NCBI GenBank assembly: GCA_913055805.1
Contig: CAJXLF010000001.1
Location: 458,761 to 522,760 of the forward strand
DNA: 64,000 bases
Origin: an uncultured Salinisphaerales bacterium
GTDB lineage: Bacteria > Pseudomonadota > Gammaproteobacteria > Nevskiales > CAJXLF01
Direction: 5' to 3'
Part shown: positions 19,741-41,881 of the stretch, piece by piece
Layout: every line of letters starts with the position of its first letter
Position numbering within the stretch: the first letter of the stretch is position 1
Made by a program: the position numbers and the translations under genes
Notes under the pieces: generated by a model
What the model saw: the letters and a program-made list of their open reading frames with translations, nothing else
The model's database searches: none
What the model was told of the DNA's origin: nothing

Positions 19741-19794
19741 ATGAGTAATTCTATTAAAAAGCGCGATGGCGTAGAGCCCGTGGAGGAGAGATTC

Positions 19795-23701: not shown

Positions 23702-23703
23702 CC

Positions 23704-24555: not shown

Positions 24556-24562
24556 ACACTCA

Positions 24563-24745
24563 TCTCCCTCGGTGGGAGAGGCCAGAGTCAGCAATTCCCT
24601 CTCCTTTAGGTGGAGAGGCTGTCTCTTTTATCCCCTCTCCCCTGGCGGGAGAGGGCTAGGCCCCAACAAGTTCCCTCACCCTGGCGGGAGAGTGTTAGGC
24701 CCCAACAAATTCCCTCTCCCCTGGCGGGAGAGGGTTAGGGAGAGG
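24563..24745. repeat. Tandem array of CCCTCTCCC-GGGAGAGGG hairpin repeats
   Basis: Five related hairpins follow one another (around 24563-24581, 24596-24618, 24632-24655, 24672-24693 and 24711-24737), each with arms like CCCTCTCCC and GGGAGAGGG around a short CTGGC-type loop. The last three are separated by the same linker (GCCCCAACAA). The array fills the gap between the acyltransferase and MDR genes and may weaken readthrough. The same family recurs at 45038-45075. Confidence 0.85.
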
Positions 24746-24774
24746 GGGAATAAACAGATGAACAGGACCAAATC

Positions 24775-25911: not shown

Positions 25912-25990
25912 ACGTCATCTCGACCGAGTGAAACGAGTGGAGAGATCTCATCCAGTTGAGATTCCTCGGCTGCGCTCGGAATGACAGGGA
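25912..25990. repeat. Dispersed intergenic repeat (CATCTCGACCGA...GGAATGAC type)
   Basis: The gap between the MDR and GST genes is filled by an imperfect inverted repeat: CATCTCGACCGAGTG and GTGGAGAGATCTCA on the left, TGAGATTCCTCGGC and GCTCGGAATGAC on the right. This composition is familiar as a widespread bacterial intergenic repeat family. No promoter is evident. Confidence 0.75.
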
Positions 25991-25997
25991 ACCAACC

Positions 25998-27095
25998 ATG
26001 ACCAAACCCTACACCCTCTACGGCACCGACCACTCCTACTACACGGGCAAGGTGCGGCCCTACCTGCGCTACAAGGGCATTCCCTACCGGGAAAAGCTGG
26101 CCACGCTGTGGCAGTTCAAGCGCTTCATCATCCCGCGCACCGGCCAGCGCTTCATCCCGGTGCTGCACACCCCGGATGACGAAGTGGTGCAGGACACCAC
26201 CGACATCATCGACTTCCTCGAAGGCCGCTTCCCGGAGCGCGGCATCTATCCAGCGTCACCAAAACAGAAACTGGTGGCCCTGCTGTTCGAAGTCTACGGC
26301 GATGAATGGTTTCCCCTGCCGGCCATGCACTACCGCTGGAGCTACTTCAACGAGCAGAGAACCTACATCATGGATTCATTCGGCGTGGTGGCCGGGCGAT
26401 TCGTGCCCAGGCTGGCCCGGCGGCAGGTCGGCCGCCTCATCTGGGGGCCGTTCAAGGGTGCCCTCGGGCCGCTCGGCATTAGCGACAAAACCGGCCCGGC
26501 CATCGAGGCCTGGTTTGAGCAGTTTCTCAACCACTTCGAAACCCACCTGGCAAAGCACGACTACCTGCTCGGCAGCCGCCCCAGCATCGGCGACTTCGCC
26601 CTGGCCGGGCCCCTATATGCCCACATCTGGCTGGACCCGGTGCCCCGGCAACTGCTGAAAGACAAACTCAACGTCACGAGCTGGATTCAACGCATCAACG
26701 CCGAGAGCCAGCCCGAAGGTGAGTTCCTGCCCGGCGACAAAGTGCCGGTAACCCTCATGCCCATGCTCAAACACCTGTTTGCCGAGCAATGGCCGCTGTT
26801 GCTGGATACTTCGACAAAGCTGGCCGCCTGGCTGGAAGCGAATCCAAACAAACAAAGAATCTCCCGCGCCATCGGCGAGCATCAGCTACACATCAACGGC
26901 GCTACCGAAAAACGCCTCATCTTCCCCTATGCCCAGTGGATGATGCAGCGGCCCATGGACCACTACCGGTCATTGAAGGGCGAGGACAAAGCCGCGGCCG
27001 ATGAACTACTGACACACTGCGACGGCTACCAGGCCATGCAATTCAACATCCCCCGCAGAGTGAGCCGCAATTACAACAAACTCGTCGCCGCATGA
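25998..27095 (+). CDS. Glutathione S-transferase family protein, long form
   Basis: A 365-residue protein with an N-terminal thioredoxin-like GST domain (YTLYGTDHSYYTGKVRPYLR to FLEGRFPERG, about residues 4-78) and a C-terminal helical GST domain (YLLGSRPSIGDFALAGPLYA near 190). It is much longer than the usual 200-230 residues, with an extra C-terminal segment of about 120 residues that has no recognised domain. The ATG at 25998 follows the repeat; the frame open upstream is repeat sequence. It is probably part of the detoxification gene set of this region. Confidence 0.82.
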   Translation: MTKPYTLYGTDHSYYTGKVRPYLRYKGIPYREKLATLWQFKRFIIPRTGQRFIPVLHTPDDEVVQDTTDIIDFLEGRFPERGIYPASPKQKLVALLFEVYGDEWFPLPAMHYRWSYFNEQRTYIMDSFGVVAGRFVPRLARRQVGRLIWGPFKGALGPLGISDKTGPAIEAWFEQFLNHFETHLAKHDYLLGSRPSIGDFALAGPLYAHIWLDPVPRQLLKDKLNVTSWIQRINAESQPEGEFLPGDKVPVTLMPMLKHLFAEQWPLLLDTSTKLAAWLEANPNKQRISRAIGEHQLHINGATEKRLIFPYAQWMMQRPMDHYRSLKGEDKAAADELLTHCDGYQAMQFNIPRRVSRNYNKLVAA

Positions 27096-27127
27096 TCTGT
27101 CATTGCGAGCAAAGCGAAGCAATCTCC
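27096..27127. repeat. Fragment of an ATTGCGAGCAAAGCGAAGCAA-type dispersed repeat
   Basis: TGTCATTGCGAGCAAAGCGA followed by AGCAATCTCC lies between the GST and SDR genes. It matches the left half of a very common proteobacterial intergenic repeat; the complementary half is missing. Confidence 0.65.
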
Positions 27128-27141
27128 TACAGGAATATTCC

Positions 27142-27966
27142 ATGAACCGAACAGTATTAATCACCGGCTGCTCCACCGGCATCGGCCGCGCCCTCGCACA
27201 AGCCTTCAACAAAAAAGGCGACACTGTCATCGCCACGGCCAGACGCCTGGAATCTCTCGATGAACTCAAGGCCCAGGGCTGCGAAACCGAATCACTGGAT
27301 GTCACCAACGCAGACAGCATCGACCAACTGGTGAAACACATCGAAGCCCGCCACGGCCATATCGACATCCTCATCAACAACGCCGGCATCGCCACCATGG
27401 GCCCCATGGCCGAAATCCCGGCCGACAAGTTACGCCAGCAGTTTGAAACCAACGTCATCGCGCCGACTGTCATGGTGCAGCAATGCCTGCCCCTGCTCAG
27501 ACAAAGCCAGCAGGCCATGATCATCAACATCGGCAGCATCTCCGGCGTCCTCACCACGCCCTTTGCCGGACCGTACTGTGCAAGCAAGGCCGCCATTCAT
27601 TCCATCTCCGAAGCCATGCGGCTGGAACTCGCACCCTTCGGAATTCGAGTCGTCACCGTGCAGCCCGGTGGCATCCAGTCCAACTTTGGTGAAAACGCCT
27701 CGGCCGATGTCGCCGAATGGCTGGATGAAAACTCCCTCTACGCCCCCATCCGCAACGGCATCATGGCAAGGGCCAATGCTTCGCAGGACAAGGCTACGCC
27801 GGCAGAAGAGTTTGCAAGGACTCTGGTGCAGTCAGTTGAGAAGGATTCCAGCTCCACCTGGAATATCGGGCACGGCAGTCGGCTGTACCCGTTCATTGCC
27901 CGCTGGTTGCCGCAAGCAACCAGAACCAGGGTGATGAGCAGGAAATTTTCGTTAGCTAAGTTATAG
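27142..27966 (+). CDS. Short-chain dehydrogenase/reductase
   Basis: A 274-residue classical SDR. The cofactor motif TGCSTGIGRALAQAF is at residues 8-22, NNAGIATMGPM near 83, the active-site Ser in NIGSISG near 134 and the Tyr-Lys pair in GPYCASKAAIHS near 150. It would oxidise or reduce an alcohol/ketone with NAD(P). AGGA precedes the ATG at 27142. The gene lies on the same strand as the GST but after a repeat fragment. The substrate is unknown. Confidence 0.9.
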   Translation: MNRTVLITGCSTGIGRALAQAFNKKGDTVIATARRLESLDELKAQGCETESLDVTNADSIDQLVKHIEARHGHIDILINNAGIATMGPMAEIPADKLRQQFETNVIAPTVMVQQCLPLLRQSQQAMIINIGSISGVLTTPFAGPYCASKAAIHSISEAMRLELAPFGIRVVTVQPGGIQSNFGENASADVAEWLDENSLYAPIRNGIMARANASQDKATPAEEFARTLVQSVEKDSSSTWNIGHGSRLYPFIARWLPQATRTRVMSRKFSLAKL

Positions 27967-28009
27967 ATTTCTGGAATAGGCTAGTAATCACTAAACGCTC
28001 ACGGCTTTG

Positions 28010-28855
28010 ATGATGGCTGGCCTGAAATCAACACAAAACGCCATGGCGATGCACAGCCTGTGGAGTGCAGGCATGGCAATCGCTCTCATGACTATCGCCT
28101 TATGGCGATACTTCCGTGGACTGCCGGGCAGCGTTGAAATGCTGTACTTCATGGCACTGGCCCTGTTCCACGGCATCTTCGCCATCTGGTTCTGGCAGGG
28201 CAGGCAGCTCACAGCATTTGTTCACGCCAGTGTCGTCGCCCGCTTGCTCACCGGCAGTGTTTACTTAGTCACCGCGTGGCTTGTGTATGAAGCGGATGGT
28301 TCTATCGAACTGCCGGAGGCCGCCATCAAGGGCTATCTGGTTTATCTGCTGCTACAAGGCACGGTCGACCTGGCCGGTTCAGTCCTGACCTGGACCGCGC
28401 TTGCCGGGCCGCAGCAGACAGCGTCGCCAGACCCAACATCAGCAGACAGAAAGCTGAGCCTGGAAATCAAAAACCGCTTTGCCTTCGCCATCTACATGCT
28501 GTTTCTGGGAGCATGGGTTTTACTGGCTACCGAAAGCTTCCTTTCCGTCTTTCACCTGCCAGCAACCCTGTTCCCGAGCTGGAACGCAACCGATGCATTC
28601 ATTTCTGGGCCAGTTCACCTGTTTGCCGTGCAGGTCATCGTGTTGGCTATCTACAACCTGGTAGCCGTCCGATATCGCCTGGCCAGGCTGATTAGCGCGG
28701 GGATCCGTGGTGGCCTGTTCACCTGTGTGTTTGTTTTATTGCTGGTGGTGGCCGGGATATTGCACCCCATCACACTGCTGCTGCCTGCCGTGGATCTGAT
28801 CAGTGTGGGGTTCATTCTCTCGCATCGATTGGTGGGGCTGATAAAGGCGGCCTGA
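28010..28855 (+). CDS. Seven-helix membrane protein of unknown function
   Basis: About 281 residues with roughly seven hydrophobic segments, for example MAIALMTIALWRYF near the start, YFMALALFHGIFAIWFW, VARLLTGSVYLVTAWLVYEA, a central charged loop around 140-155, then MLFLGAWVLLATESFLSVF and a strongly hydrophobic C-terminal pair. No family recognised. ATG codons at 28010 and 28013 are alternative starts. It converges with the nuclease-like gene on the other strand. Confidence 0.6.
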   Translation: MMAGLKSTQNAMAMHSLWSAGMAIALMTIALWRYFRGLPGSVEMLYFMALALFHGIFAIWFWQGRQLTAFVHASVVARLLTGSVYLVTAWLVYEADGSIELPEAAIKGYLVYLLLQGTVDLAGSVLTWTALAGPQQTASPDPTSADRKLSLEIKNRFAFAIYMLFLGAWVLLATESFLSVFHLPATLFPSWNATDAFISGPVHLFAVQVIVLAIYNLVAVRYRLARLISAGIRGGLFTCVFVLLLVVAGILHPITLLLPAVDLISVGFILSHRLVGLIKAA

Positions 28856-28885: not shown

Positions 28886-31348
28886 TCACATTCTGCGTAT
28901 ACAACACTTCTTATATTTTTTGCCGCTGCCACAAGGACATGGTTCGTTACGACCGATATTCCGTTTCCGAGCCCTGGCTGAGCTAATCCGTTTCGAGCGC
29001 AGTTTTTCTGCGTTTTCTTTGAGGCGCGGCAGCTCAGTGGGTGAAATGTCTGAGGCGGCTATCCATTCCCAGTTAACATCGGTAAGCACGCCGTCTTGGG
29101 AGTAACTCAGTTCTAGCAGCAGGCGATTCTTTTCATCGTTGATTAACAGGACGGATTTTGCGTGATCTTCAGCAAAGCCAGTATCTCGGCTAACCCAAGG
29201 GTCGGTATAGCAAAAGGCGGTTAATGCCACATCGCCATGAGTAGAAAAAGGTTTGGGCCGTTTGTTTTCAGGCTGGCTTAGGATTTCTTGTTCTATGGAT
29301 GCCGCAACAAGTTTTCGTGTCTCTGAATCAAGGTCGAGTAGATAACCAGATAGTGTTGCCCTAGCCGGAGCCGCGCTTGCGGCAAGTTTATCGATTATTT
29401 CTATTATGCGGCTTGGTGTGTCCTGTTTAAGAGGGCAAGGGGCGGAGGGGTCCAGAAGGCGAGCGTTGAAAAATTTGTCTATTTCCGTTCGGTAGCCCGT
29501 AAAGTGCATTTGAGCACCGGAGGCTCCCTGCATCTCTTTGGCGTATAGACTGTAGTTGTTATGTTTTAGATAAAGGCCGAGATGGTCCAGTTCGTCATCT
29601 AGCTCGATCAATTCTGACTTAAACGCCAGCATCCTTTCGTCTACGTAGTGCAGGAATCTCAAGGGGTTTTCGAATATATCTGCGTATACACGCAGATCGT
29701 CCAGAGAGATGGCCCAGACGGGGGCGCTACCGACATCAACCCCAATTTTTCTTAGGTGTTGAATCTGGGCAGCCATTTCGGTGAAGGGGTCAAGGGTAAC
29801 CGGGCAGATGACGACCTTCTCAAAATCTGATTTTCTAAGTTCGCCGACCTTTTCTCGGTCCTGGTTGAAGAGTGGAATATTTTCTGCGCTATCCAGATAG
29901 TTTAGGAAACGCTTGCCTTGAGCGGCTGGTTTTAGAACAAGGTTTTCTAGCGATGAAATGAAAGCCGGAAAATCGTTTGCCGGCGATGTGTAAGTGAAAG
30001 CACCTGCTTTGACTTCGATTACAAAAAGGCGGTTGTCGTAGACGAGTAAACCATCGACTTCGCACCAATCCTTTGTAGTAGCGCTTTCGCTGGGGAACCA
30101 GCGGTAATTTACGGATCGCCATATAGTTGCACCAGGGAGTAATTTTTCGAGGTGCTGAAACGGTAACGTTTCCGATTGGTTTTTTTGGATATTATTCCAT
30201 GTTTGCCGATAATCTGGCTTGAGGCGCATGATGATGCGCTCCATACCCCTATATATGTTGTCGAACAGGCCGTGTAGATCGAAGCAGTAGCTTTGCCCAT
30301 CTAGACGGATAAGGGGGCGCTTAAATACAGGCCAAATTCGTAGTGGCCATCCGCGAAAGTCCCCGTCGGCGAAAAATTCAGTATCTTCCCCGGCCTCCCA
30401 TGTGAGTTCGTCAATTAGTGCCTTTGGCAGGGAAGTGATCTTTTCCACATTGCATAAATCAGAGCCAATAACCCGCCCAAGGACTCTCACCTGCCTTTTC
30501 TGCCATCCATTCTCAAGGATAACCTTTTGAATGATTTCCTCTAGAGGTAATTCTCTTAAGGAGGAGTCTGCCTTCAACTTTTCCTCGACTGCGGCCATTG
30601 AGTCTTTTTGGAAGGCTTCCATCTCTTCAAATGCTTCACCTATGCCAAAAGTTTGTGAATGCCAGATGCTGGATAGCTCATCGACGAATTGGTCTGCCGT
30701 GATACCAAATAACTCAGCTAGCACATCTGTATGTGGCAGGAATAGCTCGCGCAGGTAGGCAAGCATATGAACTTGATAGCGATTTCCACGGACATTGCAC
30801 CAGTAGAGTTGTGCCTTGAAGTAGTAATCTTCCAGATTATCGTTGTAATTTTCGTCTTCGGCTTTTTTCTTTGCTGTCCGGCAGATTTGGTAATCGAGGT
30901 TTACTTTTCCGAATAGCTGATCGACAAGATCGCGCAGCTTGTCCCATTCCTCATCAGTCAGATCCTCCCGCTGGTCGGGTGAAGGTTTAACTGATGCAAT
31001 GACACTTTGTATGTAATCGATCATGCGCATGGCCACTGAGTCGTCATGATCTAGATCGGATTCGGCCTCTGCCTTCAGAACCAGAACGGCCAGTTCCCAC
31101 CAAGCACGGTGTAGAAGTTTCTCTGGCGGAAGTTCGCTTACTAGCTTAGCTATCTCATTAACAAGCTGGTTTATCTGCTTGACAATTTCGGGGTACTCGG
31201 CGGCCGATCTTTTTTGCATTTCGGCGTGAGCACCCTCTGGCCAGTTAGTCTCCATGAGCACGCTACTACCGTAGCGAGCGACACGCAGCGGCCCCTTCGC
31301 AAAGAATTCATCTGGCTTTACAGGCTTATTTTTTCTTTTCTTGGCCAT
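28886..31348 (-). CDS. Large PD-(D/E)XK nuclease-like protein with a C-terminal SEC-C motif
   Basis: An 820-residue protein. Around residues 430-447 the pattern EVDGLLVYDNRLFVIEVKAG is a good PD-(D/E)XK-type nuclease core (Asp, then ExK). The last 20 residues contain a SEC-C zinc motif (RNEPCPCGSGKKYKKCC), as at the end of SecA and of several nucleic-acid-acting proteins. The first 350 residues are mostly helical with no recognised domain. The gene is clearly lower in GC than its neighbours, which suggests transfer. It lies 34 nt downstream of the dUTPase gene on the same strand. A role in defence against foreign DNA is possible but not shown. Confidence 0.7.
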   Translation of the reverse strand: MAKKRKNKPVKPDEFFAKGPLRVARYGSSVLMETNWPEGAHAEMQKRSAAEYPEIVKQINQLVNEIAKLVSELPPEKLLHRAWWELAVLVLKAEAESDLDHDDSVAMRMIDYIQSVIASVKPSPDQREDLTDEEWDKLRDLVDQLFGKVNLDYQICRTAKKKAEDENYNDNLEDYYFKAQLYWCNVRGNRYQVHMLAYLRELFLPHTDVLAELFGITADQFVDELSSIWHSQTFGIGEAFEEMEAFQKDSMAAVEEKLKADSSLRELPLEEIIQKVILENGWQKRQVRVLGRVIGSDLCNVEKITSLPKALIDELTWEAGEDTEFFADGDFRGWPLRIWPVFKRPLIRLDGQSYCFDLHGLFDNIYRGMERIIMRLKPDYRQTWNNIQKNQSETLPFQHLEKLLPGATIWRSVNYRWFPSESATTKDWCEVDGLLVYDNRLFVIEVKAGAFTYTSPANDFPAFISSLENLVLKPAAQGKRFLNYLDSAENIPLFNQDREKVGELRKSDFEKVVICPVTLDPFTEMAAQIQHLRKIGVDVGSAPVWAISLDDLRVYADIFENPLRFLHYVDERMLAFKSELIELDDELDHLGLYLKHNNYSLYAKEMQGASGAQMHFTGYRTEIDKFFNARLLDPSAPCPLKQDTPSRIIEIIDKLAASAAPARATLSGYLLDLDSETRKLVAASIEQEILSQPENKRPKPFSTHGDVALTAFCYTDPWVSRDTGFAEDHAKSVLLINDEKNRLLLELSYSQDGVLTDVNWEWIAASDISPTELPRLKENAEKLRSKRISSARARKRNIGRNEPCPCGSGKKYKKCCIRRM

Positions 31349-32177: not shown

Positions 32178-32186
32178 ATTAATTTG

Positions 32187-32519
32187 ATGGGTCAGCAGGA
32201 AATGAAGACCAAACGGAATTTGTTTGCAGAGGTTTCAGAAGGCCTGGATGCTTTGGCCGAGGAGCGCGAGGGTAAGCGTACCTTGCGGACCCATGCAGTT
32301 ACTGCCAAGCCGATTAAAACCATTTCTCCTGAAGAACTGATCCGGATTCGGGCCCGGTTCAATATGTCGAGAGCCGTATTTGCGACTTATCTCTCCATTA
32401 ACCCCAGGACGCTGGAAAACTGGGAGCAGGGAAGAGCAGAGCCGAATAAACAGGCTTTGGTCTTGCTGAGGATGCTCGACAAGTATCCGGATACGCTACA
32501 AAGGATTACTGCGATCTAG
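32187..32519 (+). CDS. Solitary HigA-like XRE regulator (antitoxin-type)
   Basis: A 110-residue protein with a C-terminal XRE helix-turn-helix (ISPEELIRIRARFNMSRAVF to PRTLENWEQGRAEPNKQAL, about residues 48-92), the layout of HigA/NadS antitoxins that follow a RelE-like toxin. No toxin gene is found on either side, so it is an orphan regulator or a remnant of a toxin-antitoxin pair. A perfect palindrome lies just upstream. ATG at 32187 was chosen; TTG at 32184 and ATG at 32202 are alternatives. It is divergent from the dUTPase gene. Confidence 0.78.
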   Translation: MGQQEMKTKRNLFAEVSEGLDALAEEREGKRTLRTHAVTAKPIKTISPEELIRIRARFNMSRAVFATYLSINPRTLENWEQGRAEPNKQALVLLRMLDKYPDTLQRITAI

Positions 32520-32533
32520 AATCCCGGTGCTTT

Positions 32534-33331
32534 CTACAGCACAAAAGGAATGATCGCTTTGCGCTCTGGCGGGTATTGGTCGCCGAAGTGTTTCTGGTAC
32601 CAGCGATGCGCGTTGAGCGCCTGGGCCATCAGGGGCAGGGCGATCCATATCGCGAATACCAGGCCGACAATGGACCAGGACATGATGGCGAAGCCGATCC
32701 ATTCCAGCATTTCGCCAAAGTAGTTGGGGCAGGACACCCAGCGGAAAAAGCCGCCGCGCGGCAGTTTGTATTCGGTTTCGTCTGGTTTGCGCAGGTTGAT
32801 GAGGATGTTGTCGGAGTGGATGTTGATAGCCATGCCGATGACGAACATCGCCAGCCCCAGGCCAAAGCGCGGGTCGGCCAGCCAGCTGCTGTCGTAGGCC
32901 TTAAAGGCGCCGAAGTAGTAACCGATGATGTAGCCGTTGATGATGTAGAAGCTCATTGCGAACAGCATGATCAGCACCGGCATGCGCTTGCCCTTCACCT
33001 TGAGGCGGTAGGGATAGATCAGGGCACGGTGGAAGTAGTGCACGAAGAAGGCCGCAACGAATACCACTGACCCGTTGATGTCACTGCCTGAAGCCTGCAC
33101 CCCGGCCAGGTAGCAAAAGACCACGGTGACCAGCACCGGGGTTTCGAGAATGATCCAGCCGGTTTTTTTGTCGATATCGCCAAGGATCAGCAGGCCGGAG
33201 CGTTGCTCGCGGTTGCTGATGGGCATCATGCCGGCAAAGTGCATGGCTGCGGCCGAGATCACACACAGCAGCACCCACACCAGCAGGATGAGGTCGAAGC
33301 TGGCGCGGTCCAGTTGGGGCAGCAGATCCAT
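32534..33331 (-). CDS. Steroid 5-alpha-reductase family membrane protein
   Basis: A 265-residue integral membrane protein with about six hydrophobic segments. The C-terminal part carries the family pattern: SDNILINLRKPDETEYKLPR near 165, then GGFFRWVSCPNYFGEMLEWI and AHRWYQKHF followed by YPPERKAIIPFVL at the end. Members reduce the delta-4 double bond of 3-oxo-steroids with NADPH. The bacterial substrate is unknown; a sterol- or steroid-like molecule is the obvious guess. It follows the membrane protein gene at 33341 by 9 nt and both are divergent from a TetR gene. Confidence 0.85.
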   Translation of the reverse strand: MDLLPQLDRASFDLILLVWVLLCVISAAAMHFAGMMPISNREQRSGLLILGDIDKKTGWIILETPVLVTVVFCYLAGVQASGSDINGSVVFVAAFFVHYFHRALIYPYRLKVKGKRMPVLIMLFAMSFYIINGYIIGYYFGAFKAYDSSWLADPRFGLGLAMFVIGMAINIHSDNILINLRKPDETEYKLPRGGFFRWVSCPNYFGEMLEWIGFAIMSWSIVGLVFAIWIALPLMAQALNAHRWYQKHFGDQYPPERKAIIPFVL

Positions 33332-33340
33332 GGGGATTGA

Positions 33341-34153
33341 TTATGCTGCTTTGCTGGCCGCCAGGTCTTCACGCAACAGCTTGTATCCGAGCACCCCGAA
33401 AATGAGCGGGAAGACGAAATACTGGTACTGCGTCCACACCAGCGCCAGCAGGGTGTCGGCCACGCCGCCCACCATGTTCTCGAAGCCGGCAAAGACCTCG
33501 GTGAAGGAAAAGATGAAGGTGGAGGCCACTGGTTCGCCGCAGCCGATCACGGCCACCAGGTAGCGATGCGGTGAGCCCTTCTTGTTGAGGTAGAAGAAGT
33601 AGATCACGGTGAGCAGGTTGACGAAGGCATACAGCTCCAGTGTGTAGAAGGTGGGGTCGCGATTGATGGTGCGCAGGTCCACCGAAGCAAACGAGCCCAG
33701 CGACCACCAGTACATGTGCAGAATGCTTTCACGCATGTATTCGGTATGGGCGAGCAGGTCGTCGAGGCTGTGCATGTCCACGAACAGGATGGGCGAGAAG
33801 ATCAGCCAGGGAATCTCCCACACTACGTTGGTGAAGGCGTAGCTGAGCATCCAGATGGCCAGCGCGTCGTGGAAGAGATCCGAGCGTGTACGGTTGGCGC
33901 CGGGACGCAGCAGGAAGACCAGCAGCCAGCCGTTCAGCCAGATGCTGATGCCATAGAGGGAGATGCGGCTGCTGTCGCGGAAATCCAGGGCGCCCAGATA
34001 GAAGGCCACGGCGCAGGCCCCGGCCAGCCCCCACCACAGGGCGGTCCAGCCCATGAACAGGCGGCTTACGGCGGGATCCATCAGGCGCGGTGTCACGCCG
34101 CCGAGTGGGGTGGATAGGGAGATGCCTTGCTCCGCTGTGATGCTGTGATTCAT
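33341..34153 (-). CDS. Multi-pass membrane protein in an operon with the 5-alpha-reductase-like gene
   Basis: A 270-residue protein with about seven hydrophobic segments. Conspicuous residues inside them are His and Asp in SDLFHDALAIWMLSYAF (about 105-121) and Glu in NVVWEIPWLIF near 127; the arrangement recalls emopamil-binding-protein-type sterol isomerases, but the match is weak and not a firm call. The start at 34153 is preferred to an upstream frame that would cross the operators. First gene of the operon with 32534-33331, directly downstream of two TTACA-N4-TGTAA sites. Confidence 0.6.
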   Translation of the reverse strand: MNHSITAEQGISLSTPLGGVTPRLMDPAVSRLFMGWTALWWGLAGACAVAFYLGALDFRDSSRISLYGISIWLNGWLLVFLLRPGANRTRSDLFHDALAIWMLSYAFTNVVWEIPWLIFSPILFVDMHSLDDLLAHTEYMRESILHMYWWSLGSFASVDLRTINRDPTFYTLELYAFVNLLTVIYFFYLNKKGSPHRYLVAVIGCGEPVASTFIFSFTEVFAGFENMVGGVADTLLALVWTQYQYFVFPLIFGVLGYKLLREDLAASKAA

Positions 34154-34184
34154 GGGGTGTCCTCCAGCCGGCCGCTTCATTAAC

Positions 34185-34198
34185 TTACAATGCTGTAA
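34185..34198. promoter_or_regulatory. TetR-type operator 1 (TTACA-N4-TGTAA)
   Basis: TTACAATGCTGTAA is a perfect 5-bp inverted repeat with a 4-nt spacer. It lies between the divergent membrane-protein and TetR genes. A second copy with the same arms and spacing lies 28 nt away at 34213-34226. Confidence 0.75.
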
Positions 34199-34212
34199 TA
34201 TTAACAACAATC

Positions 34213-34226
34213 TTACAAATATGTAA
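34213..34226. promoter_or_regulatory. TetR-type operator 2 (TTACA-N4-TGTAA)
   Basis: TTACAAATATGTAA has the same arms and spacer as operator 1 and ends 9 nt before the TetR start codon. Two copies in an 83-nt divergent gap suggest control of both the regulator and the steroid-reductase-like operon. Confidence 0.75.
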
Positions 34227-34235
34227 AATTAAAGG

Positions 34236-34856
34236 ATGGCAAAGACTGAAGACGGCAGAAGCAAGCCCCGCCCGGGCATCGAGGCCCAGCGGGAAGTGAT
34301 CCTTGAGACGGCGGTGGCGCTGTTTATCGAGCAGGGCGCCCAGGCGGTGTCCATCGCCCAGATCTGCCAGCGGGCGCATATCTCGCGGCCCACCTTCTAT
34401 CGCTGTTTCGAGGACAAGGATGCCTTGGTGGATAGTCTCTACCAGCAATCCATCTTCGTGCCTGTTCAGCAGATTCTGCTGGCACGTCTGCCGGAAATGG
34501 GCAATGACCCCGACGGCTTGCGCGCCACATTGGACGCCATGCTCGACGCCATTTTCGATCAGGCGCGCTTCGCCGAGCTGGTGTTTGCCGAGTCCAATAA
34601 CCCGGACTCGCCGGCCCATCGCATCGTGAACGAAGCCTTCGAGCAGACAGCCGATGTGGTGGATGCCTGGCTCAGGCAGCGTGGTCACGGCAAGCTGCCG
34701 CGGCCCTTTCTGAAGTCGGTGATGGCGGCCTGCCAGTGGCTGGTGCACGACGCCATTCGCGCCGGCCTGTCACCCAGACAACGTGAGGTCGCCAAGGAAT
34801 CGACCTGGCTGCTGGTGTCCAGCCTGATGGCGGGCTTGCCCCGGTCATCAGACTGA
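34236..34856 (+). CDS. TetR/AcrR-family regulator (second)
   Basis: A 206-residue TetR protein. The HTH spans about residues 18-62 (REVILETAVALFIEQGAQAV, then QICQRAHISRPTFYRCFEDK). The rest is a helical ligand domain. It is divergent from the membrane protein and 5-alpha-reductase-like genes and sits beside two identical-arm operators, so it probably represses that operon and itself in response to a hydrophobic ligand. It ends 4 nt before the stop of the convergent NmrA-like gene. Confidence 0.88.
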   Translation: MAKTEDGRSKPRPGIEAQREVILETAVALFIEQGAQAVSIAQICQRAHISRPTFYRCFEDKDALVDSLYQQSIFVPVQQILLARLPEMGNDPDGLRATLDAMLDAIFDQARFAELVFAESNNPDSPAHRIVNEAFEQTADVVDAWLRQRGHGKLPRPFLKSVMAACQWLVHDAIRAGLSPRQREVAKESTWLLVSSLMAGLPRSSD

Positions 34857-34860
34857 GCCG

Positions 34861-35736
34861 CTATATCTGTTCAGCACCTTCCCAGTAAGCCAGGGTGTCG
34901 TTCACGAAATTCTTCAGGTTTCTGGGCGCATGGCCGGTGATCTTCTCCACGTCGGGGCTGGCCTTGGAACCCGAGCCCTGGTGGAACATGCGGATAATCT
35001 GTTTGCGATGTTCAATAGACCAGCGGTCCAGTCCCTTCAGGCGCAGCACAATGCCCAGCAGGCCCAGCGGAATGGCCTTGAATTTCACTTTGCGGCCCAG
35101 GATCTGGCTCAGCACAAAAGCCAGTTCGGCAAATGACGAGGCGGCGCCGGTAATCTCATAAGTGTCATGCAGGGGTTGCCCGGCCATCAGGCAGCGGGCG
35201 GCGCATGCACCGATGTCGCGGGTATCGACAAAGCTGATCGGCAGGTCCTTGGGGAAGGGCATCTTCAGCGTCTGACCTTTGCTGACCATCTTGGCGGGCA
35301 GGTCGAGCAGGTTCTGCATGAAGAAATTGGGCCGCAGCATGGCGTATTCCAGACCACTCTGCTTGATGGCCTGCTCAATGGCCCAGTGTTCGCGGCCCGT
35401 GTCGGCCGGGCTGTGCTGTTCAACAGTGTTGGGCGAGCCGGAGACCTTGACGATGCGTTTTATGCCCGCCTGTTTCGCGGCTTCCACCGCACGCAGCTGG
35501 CGGGCCTCCATGGTGGGGCCATGGACGCACAGCAGGAAGAGCGCGTCGCAGCCGGCAAAGGCCTTTAGCATGCTGGCCGGGTTGTCCATGTCGCCCTGGA
35601 CGATGGACACATCGCCCAACTTTGGCCGGGCGGCGTCAGGGTTGCGGGCCATGACGCGGAAGTCCGCGTTGGCTTTTTTCAGTTCAGCCACGACATGCTG
35701 GCCAATGTTGCCGGTGGCGCCGGTGATTACAATCAT
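34861..35736 (-). CDS. NmrA-like NAD(P)-binding protein (atypical SDR)
   Basis: A 291-residue protein starting with MIVITGATGNIGQHVVAELK, the GxxGxxG motif of atypical SDRs. The central VKVSGSPN and the missing classical YxxxK pair point to the NmrA/quinone-oxidoreductase-2 group, which includes NAD(P)H:quinone reductases and redox sensors. Third gene in a minus-strand operon with two GST genes (19 nt after the GST at 35756). It could reduce a quinone or ketone intermediate; this is inferred. Confidence 0.8.
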   Translation of the reverse strand: MIVITGATGNIGQHVVAELKKANADFRVMARNPDAARPKLGDVSIVQGDMDNPASMLKAFAGCDALFLLCVHGPTMEARQLRAVEAAKQAGIKRIVKVSGSPNTVEQHSPADTGREHWAIEQAIKQSGLEYAMLRPNFFMQNLLDLPAKMVSKGQTLKMPFPKDLPISFVDTRDIGACAARCLMAGQPLHDTYEITGAASSFAELAFVLSQILGRKVKFKAIPLGLLGIVLRLKGLDRWSIEHRKQIIRMFHQGSGSKASPDVEKITGHAPRNLKNFVNDTLAYWEGAEQI

Positions 35737-35755: not shown

Positions 35756-36583
35756 TCAGGCCGGTATGAAGGCGCAGAAGTCGGTGCCTGTCATGCGGCG
35801 GTAAGCGGTGTAAATGCCCATGGCACGAATAGCACCCTTGGGCTCCCAGTTCTGTAAGGCGCCGCGGTAGGACTTGCGCTGGCGCATGCGGGCAAACCAC
35901 TGCGAATAATTTGGAAATCGCCGGGTGGGAAAACCCATAAGGGCATAGCGGTGGGCGCTGATCATCCAGGCGGCATCGGCAATGGAAAAGTGCTTGCCGG
36001 CGATGTAAGGCTGGTTTGCGAGTTGCTGATCTAGTGCTGAGGTGTCGGCCATGATCCTGGCCACTGAATCCTGGATCAGTTTTTTTGGCAGGCCATTCTT
36101 CGATGAAAACATTTCATGGAATTCCACCAGCCCGGGATTATGCTGCTGCAGGCGTTTGAAGCGAGCCAGCGCCTCGGGTGATTTGCGGGCTTTGAGCTTG
36201 AACAGGAATTCGTGGGAGGTAACCTTGAGGGCATATTGCTGCTCATCGCAGCGCTCCACCCAGTAATGTGTTTCCGCCGGGTTGCCGGCGTTCAGTGAAG
36301 GGCCGTCGAAGGTTTTGTCGATGTAGGCCAGGATGTCCGCCGATTCGATGTGCACGACGCCATCGTGCACCAGGGTGGGCACAACCCCCTTCGGGTTGAT
36401 AGTGGGGTAGTCGCTGGTGACATGCTCGTCGTTGGCGATGTCGATGACGTGGCTTTCCCAGGGCAGGCCTTTCTCCTCCAGTGCTACCCGCACGCGCTGG
36501 GAACAACTCGACAGGCCCGCATGATACAGGTGCAGACCCTTCAGTTGTCGCACCTCAAGATTCGGAGGATTGATGATGGCCAT
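35756..36583 (-). CDS. Glutathione S-transferase
   Basis: A 275-residue GST. The N-terminal thioredoxin domain has LYHAGLSSCSQRVRVALEEK (about residues 18-37), with Ser-Cys at the position of the active-site residue, then NPKGVVPTLVHDG near 65 and HIESADILAYID with the Glu-Ser pair that binds the glutathione gamma-glutamyl part. The C-terminal domain includes PYIAGKHFSIADAAWMISAH near 197. It starts 2 nt after the stop of the fused GST gene, so both are co-expressed. Confidence 0.9.
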   Translation of the reverse strand: MAIINPPNLEVRQLKGLHLYHAGLSSCSQRVRVALEEKGLPWESHVIDIANDEHVTSDYPTINPKGVVPTLVHDGVVHIESADILAYIDKTFDGPSLNAGNPAETHYWVERCDEQQYALKVTSHEFLFKLKARKSPEALARFKRLQQHNPGLVEFHEMFSSKNGLPKKLIQDSVARIMADTSALDQQLANQPYIAGKHFSIADAAWMISAHRYALMGFPTRRFPNYSQWFARMRQRKSYRGALQNWEPKGAIRAMGIYTAYRRMTGTDFCAFIPA

Positions 36584-36585
36584 GG

Positions 36586-38136
36586 CTAGGCCTCCTGCAT
36601 CGCAGGAGTGATGGATTCTTTGTCGCCGAGCTGAAGTTCAACGGCGGTTATCCACTTCTGCACACGGGGATAGTCTTCAAGGTCGTGACTGCCGAAGTCG
36701 GCGCAGTAGGTCTGCAGGCGGCGGGCGGTGACGATGTCGGCAAAGCCGAACGCTTGATCCAGCCAGTCCCCATCCGCCAATGCGGCATCCACCTGCTTGA
36801 TCTGTTGCCGAATGAAGCCGCGCGCCGCCTCCAGAATTTCGGGCGGGCAATGTTCTGTATCCAGCGCCGGCTTGAGATACTTGGTTTCGCCTTCCTTGTC
36901 GCCGCCGACCCAGATACGCGCCCGGGCCCGGGCGTAGGCGTCGGCAGGAAACCCCCTGGCGGCCTGCGGCAGTGCCCGGTGCAGCACATCGACAATGGTC
37001 GGCAGGCCTTGCACGCTGACCTCATCCAGGGTGAGCGAGGGCAGGGCAGCATTGCTGATCTGCCCGCTGCAGTCCGCGCCCAGCCAGTGCAGCAGGTCGC
37101 GGGCCGTCTGGCCTTCTTCCGTGGCCGGGTTGTAGTGCAGGACCAGCCGGGACGGAGGGCTTGCGGGGGCGGCCGCTTCTGCAACCGGCACCGTGTGGCG
37201 GCGACGGGGCAGGGTCTTGCGGATGCGGCTCACCGCACGTTCCAGTTTCATGGCATCCAGCGAAAACAGCTTGCGCATGATTTTCAGGCGCAGTCTTTCC
37301 GACAGCGAAAGTTTCGAGGCGGGCTGCAGGGAGCGGAAGCGTGCCCAGCGGATCATACGCAGCATGAGCGGGTTGGACATCATCTGCTCATTGGCCGTCA
37401 TGGAGGCATGCATGCTGGGATGGGCGGCTACCCGATCCAGCCATTGGCGCGTACGCGGATAGCCTGTGGCGCTCACCTCGATACCCAGAAAAGTCAGCAT
37501 GCGTATGCGGGGGAACACGGATATATCGGCCTGGCTGAATCGGGCGCCTATCAAATAGGGCCGCCCGTCTGACAGGCAGTCTTCCATGGTCTGGATGCCG
37601 TTTTCCAGCACCTGCACATGGCCGGCTTCTTCCTGCTCGCTTAAGAGCGTGCCCAGGTAGGCCTTCTTGTTGAATTCGATAAAGGCCGGGTCATCGCTCT
37701 GAAGCCTGATGCCAGCAATGAACTGCTCGATATTCGCTTTCGACACGCGCATGAAGACGCCGACCGTGCGGTGATACATGAGCATGAAGAAGGACTGGGC
37801 AAAGCGGATTTCGAAAGCCTGCCATTCCCGCACCCTTGCATAGTCCCCGGCGTCGGTCGGGTAGAGCGGTGCGCCGGGAAAGGCCTCGTCCAGGTACTGG
37901 GTGATGATGTTGGATTCCCACAGCGGCCGGCCGTTGTGCATCAGCGCCGGCACCTTGCCGAAGGGGTTGATGGCCTTGTAGGCCGCCGTCTTCTGCTCGG
38001 CCCGGCTGATATCCACGTATTGCACCTGGTGCGGGATCCGTTTGGCCGCCAGCGTCACCCGTACGCGCCGTGCACAGGGCGACAGCGGCGAATCGTAGAA
38101 CACCAGGCTTTCCTTCTTGATGTCTGTAGAAATCAT
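36586..38136 (-). CDS. Tandem (fused) glutathione S-transferase
   Basis: A 516-residue protein with two GST units. The first (residues 1 to about 255) is complete: VFYDSPLSPCARRVRVTLAA with a Cys near the active-site position, NPFGKVPALMHNG, WESNIITQYLDE and YLIGARFSQADISVFPRIRM. A basic linker (about 270-320) leads to a second unit (about 330-505), which starts VLHYNPATEEGQTARDLLHW and lacks the usual SxxC/SNAI motifs, so it is probably inactive or structural. First gene of the minus-strand operon GST-GST-NmrA; its upstream region holds two operator copies. Confidence 0.85.
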   Translation of the reverse strand: MISTDIKKESLVFYDSPLSPCARRVRVTLAAKRIPHQVQYVDISRAEQKTAAYKAINPFGKVPALMHNGRPLWESNIITQYLDEAFPGAPLYPTDAGDYARVREWQAFEIRFAQSFFMLMYHRTVGVFMRVSKANIEQFIAGIRLQSDDPAFIEFNKKAYLGTLLSEQEEAGHVQVLENGIQTMEDCLSDGRPYLIGARFSQADISVFPRIRMLTFLGIEVSATGYPRTRQWLDRVAAHPSMHASMTANEQMMSNPLMLRMIRWARFRSLQPASKLSLSERLRLKIMRKLFSLDAMKLERAVSRIRKTLPRRRHTVPVAEAAAPASPPSRLVLHYNPATEEGQTARDLLHWLGADCSGQISNAALPSLTLDEVSVQGLPTIVDVLHRALPQAARGFPADAYARARARIWVGGDKEGETKYLKPALDTEHCPPEILEAARGFIRQQIKQVDAALADGDWLDQAFGFADIVTARRLQTYCADFGSHDLEDYPRVQKWITAVELQLGDKESITPAMQEA

Positions 38137-38329: not shown

Positions 38330-40480
38330 ATGAGAGGTTCACAAGCTGCCGTGAGTGCCGTGGCATTGCTGTTTGTCCTGTGGTTGGGGCATGCCGGCCG
38401 CAGCTGGGCCTGGGAAACCCAGTGGGGTGCGTTCGATGTGAGCATCAATAACCGCATCAGTCTCGGTGGCGCGTGGCGCGTGGAAGACCGCGACCCGAAC
38501 CTGATCGGCAAGCTGAATCTGAATCCGCATCTCTGTGACGGCGATGACTGCCTGTCGCTGGAGGGTGACCCGGAACCGAACCGGCGGCTGGTGAATGCCC
38601 CCGGCGCCTTCTCCGGGCATAACAATGACGACGGCAATATGAACTACGACAAGGGTGATGCCGTTGCCGCTGTAGCCAAGCTGACGACGGATATCAACGT
38701 GATGTGGGAAGACCTGGTGTTCAAGGCCCGGGGGATCGCTTTCTACGATGAAGTGAATACGGATTTTGAGGAAACCCACTTCAATACCACCTACCAGCCC
38801 GGCAAAACCAAACGCGATGGCCGGCTGGAAGAACTGGTGGGCAACGACGTTGAGCTGGCGGAGCTTTATCTGAGTGGCAGTTATTACATTGGTGGCCGGG
38901 CGCTGGGCTTTACCATCGGCCAGCAGAAGATTCCCTGGGGCGTGGCCAACCTGGTTGCCCTTAATGGTATTAATGAATGGAACCCACCCGACGCGCGGCG
39001 TCTGCACCAGCCGGGCTTCCAGCTCAATGAACTGCACCGGCCGATACCGGCCGCGCTGGTATCTTTTGATCTGACACCGAATCTCACCCTGGAAGGCGTG
39101 TACCAGTTCGGCTGGGAGCCGGTGGTGGCCGACCCGGCCGGCAGCTTCTTCGGCCCGGCGGACCAGCTCTACCGCGAGAATGCCTATGGTCTGGCCGGCA
39201 TGGGCCAGTTCCCGGAAGACCCGGACGGGCAGCACCGACTACAGCATCCGCTGGCGGCCCTGGTCACCGACACCTCCTTTACTAATGTGCTGTTGCCGGA
39301 TCGTGAGCCCGAGGACGGGGGGCAGTTTGGCGCCCGCCTGACCTGGTTTGCCGAGGAGATCAACAACGGCACCGAGTTCGGTTTCTATGCCATGAATTAT
39401 CACAGCCGTCTGCCGTACGGCAGCGGCATTGCGGCAGATCGTAGTTGCCTGCGGGACATGCAGACCGACAACGTGGCCGAGGCCTTTGTGGTATGTCGCG
39501 GCTTCAGTGGCCTGCTCAGTGGCGGTACCGGGGAGGAACCCCTGTTGCTGGACACCGCCAAGCTGTTCCTGGAATACCCGGAAGACATTCGCATGTTCGG
39601 GGCCAGCTTCGCTACCAATATCGGGGCCTGGGCGGTGTCGGGCGAATACGCCTATCGACCCGATATGCCGACACAGGTGTCATTGATCGACGTAGGCTTT
39701 GCCGCTCTGCAGCCGGGCACACCGGATCGGGATATCGTGATTGGCCTGGAAGGGCTGACCCAACTCGCCTTGCTCAGCGGTGTGGATGATCTGGTCGGCC
39801 TGTTGCTGGGCAGCGCCGGGTTGCCATTGGGCTTCCCGGTCACGATTCCCAGCGGCCAGCGCCTGATTCCCGATTATCTGCAGACCCGTTACCGCGGCCA
39901 GACGGCCGTGGCCGGCCAGTATGTGCGGGGTTATGAAGAGCTGGATGCGCACCAGCTTTCGGTATCCGGCCTGCGTCTTTTTGGCAGCAGCAACCCGCTG
40001 AAGGCCGACACCATCATCCTGATGCTGGAACTCGGCATGATGTTTTACCCGGATATGCCGTCGCTGGATGTGCTGCAGTTCGAGGGTGGTTCGCCGCAGA
40101 ACACACACTACAGCCCCGGTGCGGACGGCACGGGTGGCGGGGCGATGGACACCAGCCGTTTCAATCCCACCCAGCAGACCGATGGTTTCGCCGACGACTT
40201 CTCCATGGGTTATCGCGCCCTGCTGCGGCTGGAATACAACGACGTGATCTGGGGCATGTCGCTGAATCCCATGCTGGTGCTGTTCCACGATGTGAAGGGG
40301 ACTGCGCCACTACCTGTACAGAATTTCCTCGAAGACCGCATCGAGGCGGTCTTCGGGCTGGAAGTGCTCAAGGGCCAGCACTGGGGCGGCATGCTGACCT
40401 ATCAGTACCTAGATGGCGACGAGCATAACCCCGTACGCGACCGCGACAACATTTCATTCAGTATTTCTTATACCTTCTAG
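38330..40480 (+). CDS. DUF1302 outer-membrane beta-barrel protein
   Basis: A 716-residue protein with a signal peptide (AVSAVALLFVLWLGHAG, then WAW) and a barrel-type C-terminus ending in Phe (NISFSISYTF). DUF1302 proteins occur in bacteria that use hydrophobic compounds and are almost always paired with DUF1329, as here 9 nt downstream. Repeated aromatic beta-strand patterns such as FTIGQQKIPWGVANLV and GGMLTYQYLDGDEHN support a barrel. Probable role: passage of a hydrophobic substrate through the outer membrane. Expression is predicted to be controlled by operators B and C. Confidence 0.85.
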   Translation: MRGSQAAVSAVALLFVLWLGHAGRSWAWETQWGAFDVSINNRISLGGAWRVEDRDPNLIGKLNLNPHLCDGDDCLSLEGDPEPNRRLVNAPGAFSGHNNDDGNMNYDKGDAVAAVAKLTTDINVMWEDLVFKARGIAFYDEVNTDFEETHFNTTYQPGKTKRDGRLEELVGNDVELAELYLSGSYYIGGRALGFTIGQQKIPWGVANLVALNGINEWNPPDARRLHQPGFQLNELHRPIPAALVSFDLTPNLTLEGVYQFGWEPVVADPAGSFFGPADQLYRENAYGLAGMGQFPEDPDGQHRLQHPLAALVTDTSFTNVLLPDREPEDGGQFGARLTWFAEEINNGTEFGFYAMNYHSRLPYGSGIAADRSCLRDMQTDNVAEAFVVCRGFSGLLSGGTGEEPLLLDTAKLFLEYPEDIRMFGASFATNIGAWAVSGEYAYRPDMPTQVSLIDVGFAALQPGTPDRDIVIGLEGLTQLALLSGVDDLVGLLLGSAGLPLGFPVTIPSGQRLIPDYLQTRYRGQTAVAGQYVRGYEELDAHQLSVSGLRLFGSSNPLKADTIILMLELGMMFYPDMPSLDVLQFEGGSPQNTHYSPGADGTGGGAMDTSRFNPTQQTDGFADDFSMGYRALLRLEYNDVIWGMSLNPMLVLFHDVKGTAPLPVQNFLEDRIEAVFGLEVLKGQHWGGMLTYQYLDGDEHNPVRDRDNISFSISYTF

Positions 40481-40489
40481 GAGACAGCC

Positions 40490-41881
40490 ATGACGACACG
40501 CAACCTGATCAAATTGATGCTGTTGGTCTGGCTCATGGCCAGGGCTGCGACCGGTCAGGCCGCTGTCAGCGCCGAAGAGGCCGCGAGACTGGGCCAGGGC
40601 CTGACACCGGTGGGCGGTCTGAAAGCCGCTAACGGGGACGGCAGCATTCCCGAATGGCGGGGCGCCAGCCTGTACAACGATGCGCAGAAAAATGTGCAAG
40701 GCCATCCGGATGACGCTCAACTGGTCGAACTGGTGAAAGGCCTGAATTCTGGCGATGCTCCGTTGTTCACAATCACCAGGGCCAACATGGCCGAGCACAC
40801 CGGCAAGCTGACCGAGGGGCAGAAGGCTTTGTTGCAAGGGCGCGAAGGTTACGCCATCCCGGTATATGCTTCGCAGCGCGGTGCTTTTTATCCGGCCACG
40901 ATCAATGAAGCGACGATCAGGAACGCCACTTCCGCGAGGCTGGAGGGTACGGATACCGTGACTGGCGCGCGGCTGGGCTATGCTTTTCCCATTCCCCAGT
41001 CCGGCGCCGAAGTGATCTGGAATCACAAGCTGCGTTACCGCGGTGATTCGCTGGTGCGAAACAATAACGAAGCCATTGTGGAACTGGACGGCAGCTTCCA
41101 GCTGACCAAGAAACTGGAGGACGTGTTCTTTGCCTATGGCAACATCGCCAACCCCGGTCAACTCGAAGATACGCCTATCGCCTACTTCCTGGGCCGCATA
41201 ACCGCGCCGGCCCGCGTGGCCGGCCAACTGGCGCTGGTGCATGAGAAGGCCGGCCTGGGCAGCAGCGGTCGCCTGGCCTGGATTTTCAACCCCGGCATGG
41301 GGCGCATCACGCGCGCCCCCAGTGTCGGATACGATGCGCCCAGCCCCGGCACTGACGGTGAGCAGTTCAACGACCAGATCGATATGTTCAATGGCGCGCT
41401 GGATCGCTATGACTGGAAACTGGTGGGCAAGAAGGAAATCTATATTCCGTATAACAGCACGGCCATGAATGTGCCGGGCACCCGATATGCGGATTTTATT
41501 GGCCCCAAATTCATTCGACCGGAGTACACCCGATATGAGTTGCATCGGGTGTGGGTGGTGGAAGCCACCATGCGCGAGGGTATTCGCCATCAACTGAGCC
41601 GCCGCACTTTCTATGTGGATGAGGATTCCTGGTCTATAGCCGCCATGGATGGTTACGACGGACGCGGCGAGTTATGGAAGTACCAGGAAGGCCATCTCAT
41701 CACCATCCCCTGGGTGCCGACCACGACGGGGAGTCCGGAAGTCTCCTACGACCTGCAGAGCGGTCGTTACTTCATGACCATGCTGCATAGTGAAGACGAA
41801 TTCCCGGATTTCACCCAGAGCTTCGAAGAAGGCTACTTCACGCCGAACAACATGAAGCGTCTCGCCAAGCGGCTGAAGTAA
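40490..41881 (+). CDS. DUF1329 family periplasmic protein
   Basis: A 463-residue protein with a signal peptide (LIKLMLLVWLMARAATGQAA). DUF1329 has a LolA/LppX-like fold that could hold a lipid or hydrophobic molecule. Family-typical stretches include LTPVGGLKAANGDGSIPEW near residue 40 and YVDEDSWSIAAMDGYDGRGE near 378. It follows DUF1302 by 9 nt and would shuttle the compound admitted by that protein across the periplasm. The transport role is inferred from the constant pairing. Confidence 0.87.
   Translation: MTTRNLIKLMLLVWLMARAATGQAAVSAEEAARLGQGLTPVGGLKAANGDGSIPEWRGASLYNDAQKNVQGHPDDAQLVELVKGLNSGDAPLFTITRANMAEHTGKLTEGQKALLQGREGYAIPVYASQRGAFYPATINEATIRNATSARLEGTDTVTGARLGYAFPIPQSGAEVIWNHKLRYRGDSLVRNNNEAIVELDGSFQLTKKLEDVFFAYGNIANPGQLEDTPIAYFLGRITAPARVAGQLALVHEKAGLGSSGRLAWIFNPGMGRITRAPSVGYDAPSPGTDGEQFNDQIDMFNGALDRYDWKLVGKKEIYIPYNSTAMNVPGTRYADFIGPKFIRPEYTRYELHRVWVVEATMREGIRHQLSRRTFYVDEDSWSIAAMDGYDGRGELWKYQEGHLITIPWVPTTTGSPEVSYDLQSGRYFMTMLHSEDEFPDFTQSFEEGYFTPNNMKRLAKRLK

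Follow-up and report, generated by a model that had tools for sequence, protein, structure and literature searches.

A stretch of 64,000 nucleotides from the genome of an uncultured Salinisphaerales bacterium (contig CAJXLF010000001.1, positions 458,761 to 522,760; the window hereafter means this whole stretch) was analysed with the focus on a locus of three genes in its middle part. Two neighbouring genes, encoding the predicted membrane protein P0001 and the membrane reductase P0002, are oriented away from the gene of P0003, a regulator of the TetR family. The membership of P0001 in the EXPERA superfamily, which includes EBP and TMEM97, and the control of the locus by TetR are regarded as highly probable. 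The following features were assigned:

32534-33331, minus strand: P0002 gene, encoding a Steroid_dh (SRD5A-like) membrane reductase of 265 amino acids
33341-34153, minus strand: P0001 gene, encoding a predicted multi-pass membrane protein of 270 amino acids
34185-34198: putative operator 1, TTACA-ATGC-TGTAA, near the expected transcription start of P0001-P0002
34198-34227, minus strand, directed towards P0001-P0002: promoter-like match TTTACA-18-TAATAT, 9/12 of the consensus and weak when taken alone
34201-34229, plus strand, directed towards tetR: promoter-like match TTAACA-17-TAAAAT, 10/12 of the consensus and likewise weak alone
34213-34226: putative operator 2, TTACA-AATA-TGTAA, which overlaps two promoter-like hexamers, a -10-like one on the side of tetR and a -35-like one on the side of P0001
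34236-34856, plus strand: P0003 gene, encoding the divergent TetR-family regulator, a probable autorepressor

The genes of P0001 and P0002 are located on the same strand with a gap of 9 bases between them and for this reason are likely co-transcribed. An alternative TTG codon 57 bases upstream of the P0001 start also opens the frame (289 amino acids), and a gene starting there would traverse operator 1. Two identical-arm TTACA-N4-TGTAA sites had been reported in the original prediction, and both were found to be exact, with a distance of 28 bases from start to start between P0001 and tetR. The pattern occurs twice in the 64-kb window and in none of 100 dinucleotide shuffles (mean 0.00), and four times in the genome of 3.38 Mb, two of these sites being the ones in the P0001-tetR intergenic region; a control pattern gave 0 sites. 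The divergent promoter-like matches, two found as compared to 1.0 expected in shuffles and thus weak by themselves, are overlapped or adjoined by both putative operators. A wider TetR regulon was considered and rejected, the remaining two genome sites being located by eye upstream of a ccmA-like gene and inside a gene. Since no steroid genes were seen by eye near these two sites, the switch looks local in its action.

The divergent TetR gene of the original prediction was likewise confirmed, P0003 matching the TetR_N model with an E value of 5.2e-14 and 52.2 bits (cut-off 24). Its score with the KstR model was 15.7 bits, below the cut-off of 280. Genes for P0003-like TetR proteins with 42-50% identity adjoin P0001 homologues at loci of five other genomes (L002, L014, L064, L065 and L066). 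The two genes are divergent or co-directional in either order, and these loci are spread over three parts of the P0001-family tree. The operator is exact in L014, together with a second copy carrying one mismatch, and in L066, and it has one mismatch in L064 and L065. When the upstream regions were scanned with at most one mismatch allowed, the operator was present at 4/5 TetR-linked loci versus 0/18 unlinked loci (Fisher p 5.6e-4), a count that is not independent because the exact operator was known from L014 and L066 beforehand, and that excludes L004 and L015 (no upstream sequence) and L063 (TetR of another type). At all 18 unlinked loci the best operator match had three or more mismatches. 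A divergent IclR-family gene takes the place of the TetR gene at three actinobacterial loci (L016, L019 and L020), and in L017 and G126 the P0001 homologue is accompanied by TetR genes of other types. Judged from gene order and sequence, the recurrent unit is a TetR regulator plus an EXPERA protein, and P0003 is a probable autorepressor acting on the palindromes at its own divergent promoter. A constant neighbourhood around this unit was looked for as well and was rejected, as the flanking genes of the P0001 relatives are mixed, with rough gene calls in the flanks of high-GC loci.

Identification of P0001 by sequence alone was attempted and had to be given up. The protein matched 0 Pfam families at E values up to 1 and none of the NCBIfam models, the search of PDB sequences returned nothing useful, and PF05241 was absent among the five Pfam families matched by 23 P0001-family members at E values up to 10. 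What worked was the combination of a predicted fold and a chain of comparisons through a paralogue. The AlphaFold (AF2) model of P0001 reached a pLDDT of 82.1 and a pTM of 0.80, and its best folds in the PDB were two chains of human EBP (entries 6oht and 8w0r) with VIA Z scores of 12.6 and 12.3, to be read with the caveat that helical bundles can reach Z ~13 by arrangement alone. The match with Z 12.6 covers P0001 residues 48-269 (189 residues, 4.6 Å, 14% identity). Three rows of sigma-2/TMEM97 came next (Z 10.6-10.4, 154-156 residues, 3.1-3.2 Å) and were followed by an unrelated row at 7.4, all five best rows being EBP or sigma-2. Foldseek assigned a probability of 1.00 to both EBP chains, but with E values of 5.3e-3 and 0.15, and none of its matches had an E value at or below 0.001. 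As a yardstick, the model of an EBP paralogue that is recognised by Pfam gave Z 11.4 with the next row at 6.9 (4 sequences, pLDDT 68.9). Such a structure-based search of the 270-residue protein had been proposed in the original prediction, and with EBP on top it did not return a structure unrelated to isomerases.

Besides P0001 the genome encodes two PF05241 proteins. One of them, the paralogue C12:99169-99984, matched human EBP with an E value of 6.4e-4 and, in a single BLASTP comparison, P0001 with an E value of 3e-7 and 22% identity. For profile comparisons three alignments were used, comprising the P0001 family (A1), this paralogue with three relatives (A4) and SRD5A proteins (A3). Comparison of A1 with A4 by hhalign gave a probability of 96.1 and an E value of 3.1e-9 over 158 columns, and comparison of A4 with the human EBP segment gave a probability of 97.25 and an E value of 2.7e-11 (hmmsearch E 7.9e-14), while in the controls, A1 versus A3 and A4 versus A3, the probability was 0.2 each. 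The weak resemblance of the second operon protein to sterol isomerases, noticed earlier, is borne out by the EBP fold and this profile chain, by which P0001 is assigned to a divergent EXPERA (EBP/TMEM97) branch. The paralogue itself (also L028:9170-9985) is an EBP-family protein that keeps most EBP catalytic residues and has Gln for H76; its gene adjoins one for an NAD-dependent epimerase-like protein and, by eye, one for a DUF1302-like porin. The other protein, C1:7062-7538 (L027:7062-7538), scored over the PF05241 cut-off and has the sigma-2 receptor TMEM97 as its best solved relative (E 1.6e-6). Including P0001, three different EXPERA-type proteins are thus encoded in the host genome.

A scan of the genome collection yielded 22 usable relatives of P0001 with 56-68% identity and one fragment; the scan was based on peptide patterns and not exhaustive, and a Myxococcota sample gave four more. 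The fragment (L023, 31 residues) was excluded from A1 and from the HsaA test described below. The relatives are labelled as Myxococcota, Deltaproteobacteria, Pseudomonadales, Cellvibrionales, Desulfobacterales, Mycobacterium, Actinomycetes and Thermoleophilia, labels which may err as nearly all carrier genomes are metagenome-assembled. Among the 100 genomes of the relatives search, P0001 was present in the window's own genome only. Support for the deep forks of the P0001-family tree is moderate or weak, and the branch of the window is long and its placement unsure.

Eight residues of P0001 (N109, E113, W150, D159, R161, E173, Q242 and Y245) are invariant in 27/27 members of the family. In human EBP, residues H76, E80, W101, D108, R110, Y111, E122, N193, W196, Y104 and T125 are listed as essential by alanine scan in the accessible part of PMC4263179. 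With the residue equivalence taken from hhalign and mapped through A4, the equivalents of E80, D108, R110 and E122 were found to be kept in 27/27 sequences, the acidic positions 80 and 108 corresponding to P0001 E113 and D159 in all of them, while H76 is replaced by N, N193 by Q and W196 by Y in 27/27 and Y111 by T in 26/27. P0001 thus does not carry the full set of the alanine scan, four of the eight placeable residues being kept and four replaced; W101, Y104 and T125 were not placeable with confidence in the P0001 alignment. On this evidence P0001 belongs to the EXPERA superfamily but is not an EBP. The invariant carboxylates together with the R110 equivalent suggest chemistry, and P0001 is likely an isomerase of ring double bonds in steroids or sterols, the chances of a steroid isomerase activity in particular being judged as even.

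TMEM97 (sigma-2 receptor) is usually described as a non-catalytic binder of sterols and lipids, and P0001 might similarly be a membrane protein that binds sterols or lipids without catalysis and is tuned by TetR to the membrane sterol or lipid load. The TMEM97 structures rank directly after EBP (Z 10.6), EBP residues H76, N193 and W196 are replaced in P0001, and no pathway gene constantly accompanies its gene at the other loci examined, all of which agrees with a binder. Against a binding function stand the invariance of the E80, D108, E122 and R110 equivalents in 27/27 sequences, which suggests chemistry, and the position of the P0001 gene 9 bases from a reductase-family gene. This explanation is considered unlikely.

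P0002 had been described as a 5-alpha-reductase-family protein, and its match to the Steroid_dh family PF02544 is strong (E 8.1e-54, 182.1 bits, cut-off 22.6). In the PDB it matched 7c83 (PbSRD5A) with an E value of 4.2e-50 and human SRD5A2 (7bw1) with an E value of 7.5e-45, and the homology is nearly full-length, residues 11-257 of 7c83 being aligned with residues 16-264 of P0002. The accessible part of PMC7815742 names eleven residues of SRD5A enzymes with a role in catalysis or NADPH binding. P0002 keeps 8/11 of them (E57, Y91, N160, D164, R171, N193, E197 and Y235), whereas Q56, R227 and H231 are replaced by L62, Q237 and A241. The QEY motif is therefore incomplete, with E63 and Y99 kept as equivalents of E57 and Y91 and L62 in place of Q, and 6/8 residues of the NADPH site are kept, the exceptions being R227 to Q and H231 to A. 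The steroid-reductase-like reading of P0002 thus holds with respect to the SRD5A family, and the protein departs from proven SRD5A enzymes at these three named residues. Among the human SRD5A2 variants reported in PMC7815742, as far as that source was accessible, H231A was the only one with no significant drop in activity. Within 15 aligned rows, Q at R227 and A at H231 were restricted to P0002 and the two orthologues nearest to it, L070 (59%) and L071 (55%), and on account of this shared state the change of R227 to Gln looks like a subfamily feature rather than decay. By eye, L070 is located near the end of an acyl-CoA ligase gene and L071 near an acyl-CoA dehydrogenase gene.

The host genome contains six matches to PF02544, of which three with strong scores lie on contig C12 (107 kb; L037-L041 and L028). 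This contig encodes a lipid-transfer-type thiolase over the model cut-off as well as HsaA-, HsaC- and KstD-like proteins with 378, 271 and 597 bits, by which the cut-offs of 450, 450 and 789 are not reached. Genes of the IpdA-, IpdB- and IpdC-like, acyl-CoA dehydrogenase and ligase types were assigned by eye. At E 1e-20 NCBIfam gave no match for the IpdA- and IpdB-like proteins; the IpdC-like protein was matched by a FabK model alone, with a score under the cut-off, and for a P450 the only matches were to unrelated P450 models. In addition to the three SRD5A homologues mentioned, C12 harbours an EBP-family gene. From these gene assignments C12 likely carries a steroid-catabolism island, and the host is likely a steroid degrader. 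Two of the C12 SRD5A paralogues (L037:9356-10951 and L041:13945-15000) directly adjoin SnoaL/NTF2-like genes, and the SnoaL/NTF2 fold includes known steroid isomerases such as ketosteroid isomerase; the 8,14-sterol reductase of PMC13277303 belongs to this superfamily as well. The placing of a reductase next to a putative isomerase might therefore be a recurring theme.

The following mode of action is proposed for the locus. As suggested by the anatomy of the region and by its recurrence across species, P0003 would sit on the two operators over the divergent promoters and keep itself and the two-gene operon off. P0003 would be released on binding a hydrophobic ligand, for which a steroid or an intermediate of steroid catabolism is the most likely candidate. 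P0001 would then shift a double bond of the steroid ring by acid-base chemistry involving E113, D159 and E173, and P0002 would use a nicotinamide cofactor to reduce the enone so formed. In this way the pair would either channel a steroid with awkwardly placed unsaturation into the main pathway or render it harmless. The EXPERA gene of other bacteria is found with no adjacent reductase and often with its own regulator. We give a balanced chance of being correct to the reading in which the host degrades steroids and the locus encodes, under local repression, an isomerase of ring double bonds together with an ene-reductase for an unsaturated steroid. A coupled action of P0001 and P0002 is put forward only tentatively. 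Doubtful, too, is the most far-reaching version, in which P0001 would found a bacterial EXPERA branch of several phyla, invisible to Pfam, with the EBP carboxylates, a recast N/Q/Y pocket and a double-bond shift other than that of EBP, joined here to an SRD5A-like reductase whose cofactor site is altered, as an inducible unit that isomerises and then reduces under a steroid-sensing TetR.

Several observations weigh against a steroid isomerase-reductase unit. P0001 has no match in Pfam or NCBIfam and its link to EBP depends on the paralogue chain, a direct hhalign comparison of A1 with the human EBP segment having failed (probability 0.15). With EBP H76, Y111, N193 and W196 missing, P0001 should not be taken to perform the very reaction of EBP. 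Concerning the three substitutions in P0002, Q56L abolished the activity of human SRD5A2 according to the accessible part of PMC7815742; this change need not mean lost function, as Q56 is absent, PbSRD5A aside, in 12/12 other bacterial homologues aligned, which are part of 29 other places with P0002 homologues in the carrier genomes. L002 is a TetR-linked locus in which the operator was not found (four mismatches). Furthermore, a conserved P0001-P0002 pair was ruled out, since by tblastn no P0002 homologue lies beside the EXPERA gene in 27 other loci (the 23 initial ones and L063-L066, with flanks of at most ~10 kb and short ones in several). The original prediction is thus supported in part: the kinship of P0001 to the sterol isomerase EBP, the likely steroid-catabolism island and the recurring TetR-operator link agree with it, but the pair is not conserved, the reductase gene being an addition to the TetR-EXPERA unit that has so far been seen only at this locus. 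P0002 homologues were detected somewhere in 17/27 carrier genomes, the own one included, a number that permits no claim on co-occurrence with P0001, as the search covered carrier genomes only.

The distribution of steroid genes among the carriers is mixed. An HsaA-like gene with at least 344 bits is present in 12/22 carrier genomes, and none was detected at E 1e-30 in carriers G101, G104, G107, G113 and G114. G101 and G113 both have a P0003-like TetR, and among the six P0003-linked hosts, of which G370 was checked for HsaA at E 1e-85 only, a strong HsaA-like gene was found in three (the own genome, G193 and G251). No clear steroid cluster was seen by eye in the flanks of L064, L065 and L066. 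In the Myxococcota sample (n=282), HsaA-like genes were found at E 1e-85 in 6/12 carriers versus 27/270 non-carriers (Fisher p 9e-4), an association that is uncorrected for kinship, takes two draws as the same genomes and includes 8/12 carriers already known as hosts.

The 5/22 carriers lacking an HsaA-like gene at E 1e-30 are also consistent with a TetR-controlled unit for the detoxification or biotransformation of a non-steroid hydrophobic compound such as a terpenoid, an aromatic or an antibiotic. TetR regulators commonly control detoxification, the flanks in other genomes are mixed, and in the window the locus is followed by an NmrA-like gene (34861-35736) and GST-fold genes (35756-38136). 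Nevertheless, a non-steroid substrate is held to be improbable, given that the characterised members of both operon-protein superfamilies act on sterols or steroids and that the host genome likely contains the steroid-catabolism island. A role of the unit in de novo sterol synthesis, the function of EBP in eukaryotes, is very improbable: the Calothrix sterol cluster is described with a C-8 isomerisation homologue (PMC10202945, accessible part) and 4/27 carriers have a squalene-epoxidase match of at least 64 bits, but of the other 23/27 carriers 20 have no match to this enzyme at E 1e-5 and 3 have weak ones of 30-34 bits, the host-genome match amounting to 34 bits over 93/276 model positions, and the host setting with the C12 island looks catabolic.

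Further genes in the window were annotated around the locus. Positions 19741-28855 contain genes for an FAD monooxygenase, glyoxalase/dioxygenase-superfamily proteins, an FAA hydrolase, an acyltransferase, ADH, GST and SDR proteins; this run, preceded by a gene judged by eye to be TetR-like (18930-19553), looks like a separate ring-cleavage pathway. An 820-amino-acid protein with a weak, below cut-off match to the nuclease-related NERD domain and a C-terminal SEC-C motif is encoded at 28886-31348, and a small HTH protein, weakly MqsA-antitoxin-like (below the cut-off), at 32184-32519, convergent with P0002. A gene pair encoding a DUF1302 protein (716 amino acids) and a DUF1329 protein (463 amino acids) is located at 38330-41881 near the P0001 locus.

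The EXPERA proteins EBP, TMEM97 and TM6SF2 matter in human disease and have been studied mainly in eukaryotes. The word 'bacteria' is absent from the main text of the founding paper on EXPERA (PMC4263179). A bacterial family with the EBP acids, a different, uniformly conserved pocket and a linked repressor and operator usable as a reporter would offer a tractable test of EXPERA chemistry. If the TetR regulator answers to steroids, it would represent a natural steroid biosensor, and the system could help to explain how bacteria handle sterols whose double bonds misfit the standard catabolic route.

Comparison with known systems places the locus as follows. Like human EBP, P0001 has the EBP fold in its model (Z 12.6) and the equivalents of E80, D108, E122 and R110; unlike EBP, it is bacterial, linked to TetR and undetected by Pfam, has about one extra N-terminal helix as judged from the aligned ranges, and shares with its family a pocket with N, Q, Y and T at H76, N193, W196 and Y111. 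With TMEM97/sigma-2 (7m94, 7mfi and 7m95) P0001 has the EXPERA core in common, but it is longer and nearer to EBP in both Z and coverage. P0002 resembles the SRD5A enzymes (7bw1; PbSRD5A, 7c83), being homologous to PbSRD5A over nearly the whole length, and differs from them by L at Q56, Q at R227 and A at H231. KstR is a TetR-family regulator of steroid catabolism in steroid-degrading hosts, and P0003 belongs to the same family; unlike KstR, it scores far below the KstR cut-off and its operator is local, with 2/4 genome sites at its own locus. Among the papers listed in the literature searches (at most 20 for each, often out of many more), none, going by title and opening of the abstract, dealt with a bacterial EXPERA protein associated with TetR or with steroid degradation. 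A bacterial protein with activities comparable to those proposed here is 8,14-Bsr, a member of the NTF2 superfamily which, according to the accessible part of PMC13277303, reduces and isomerises nuclear double bonds of sterols, occurs in sterol producers and Mycobacteriales, and has no sequence kinship to characterised proteins. In 8,14-Bsr, as described in that part, both steps are performed by one protein, whereas P0001 and P0002 are two predicted multi-pass membrane proteins.

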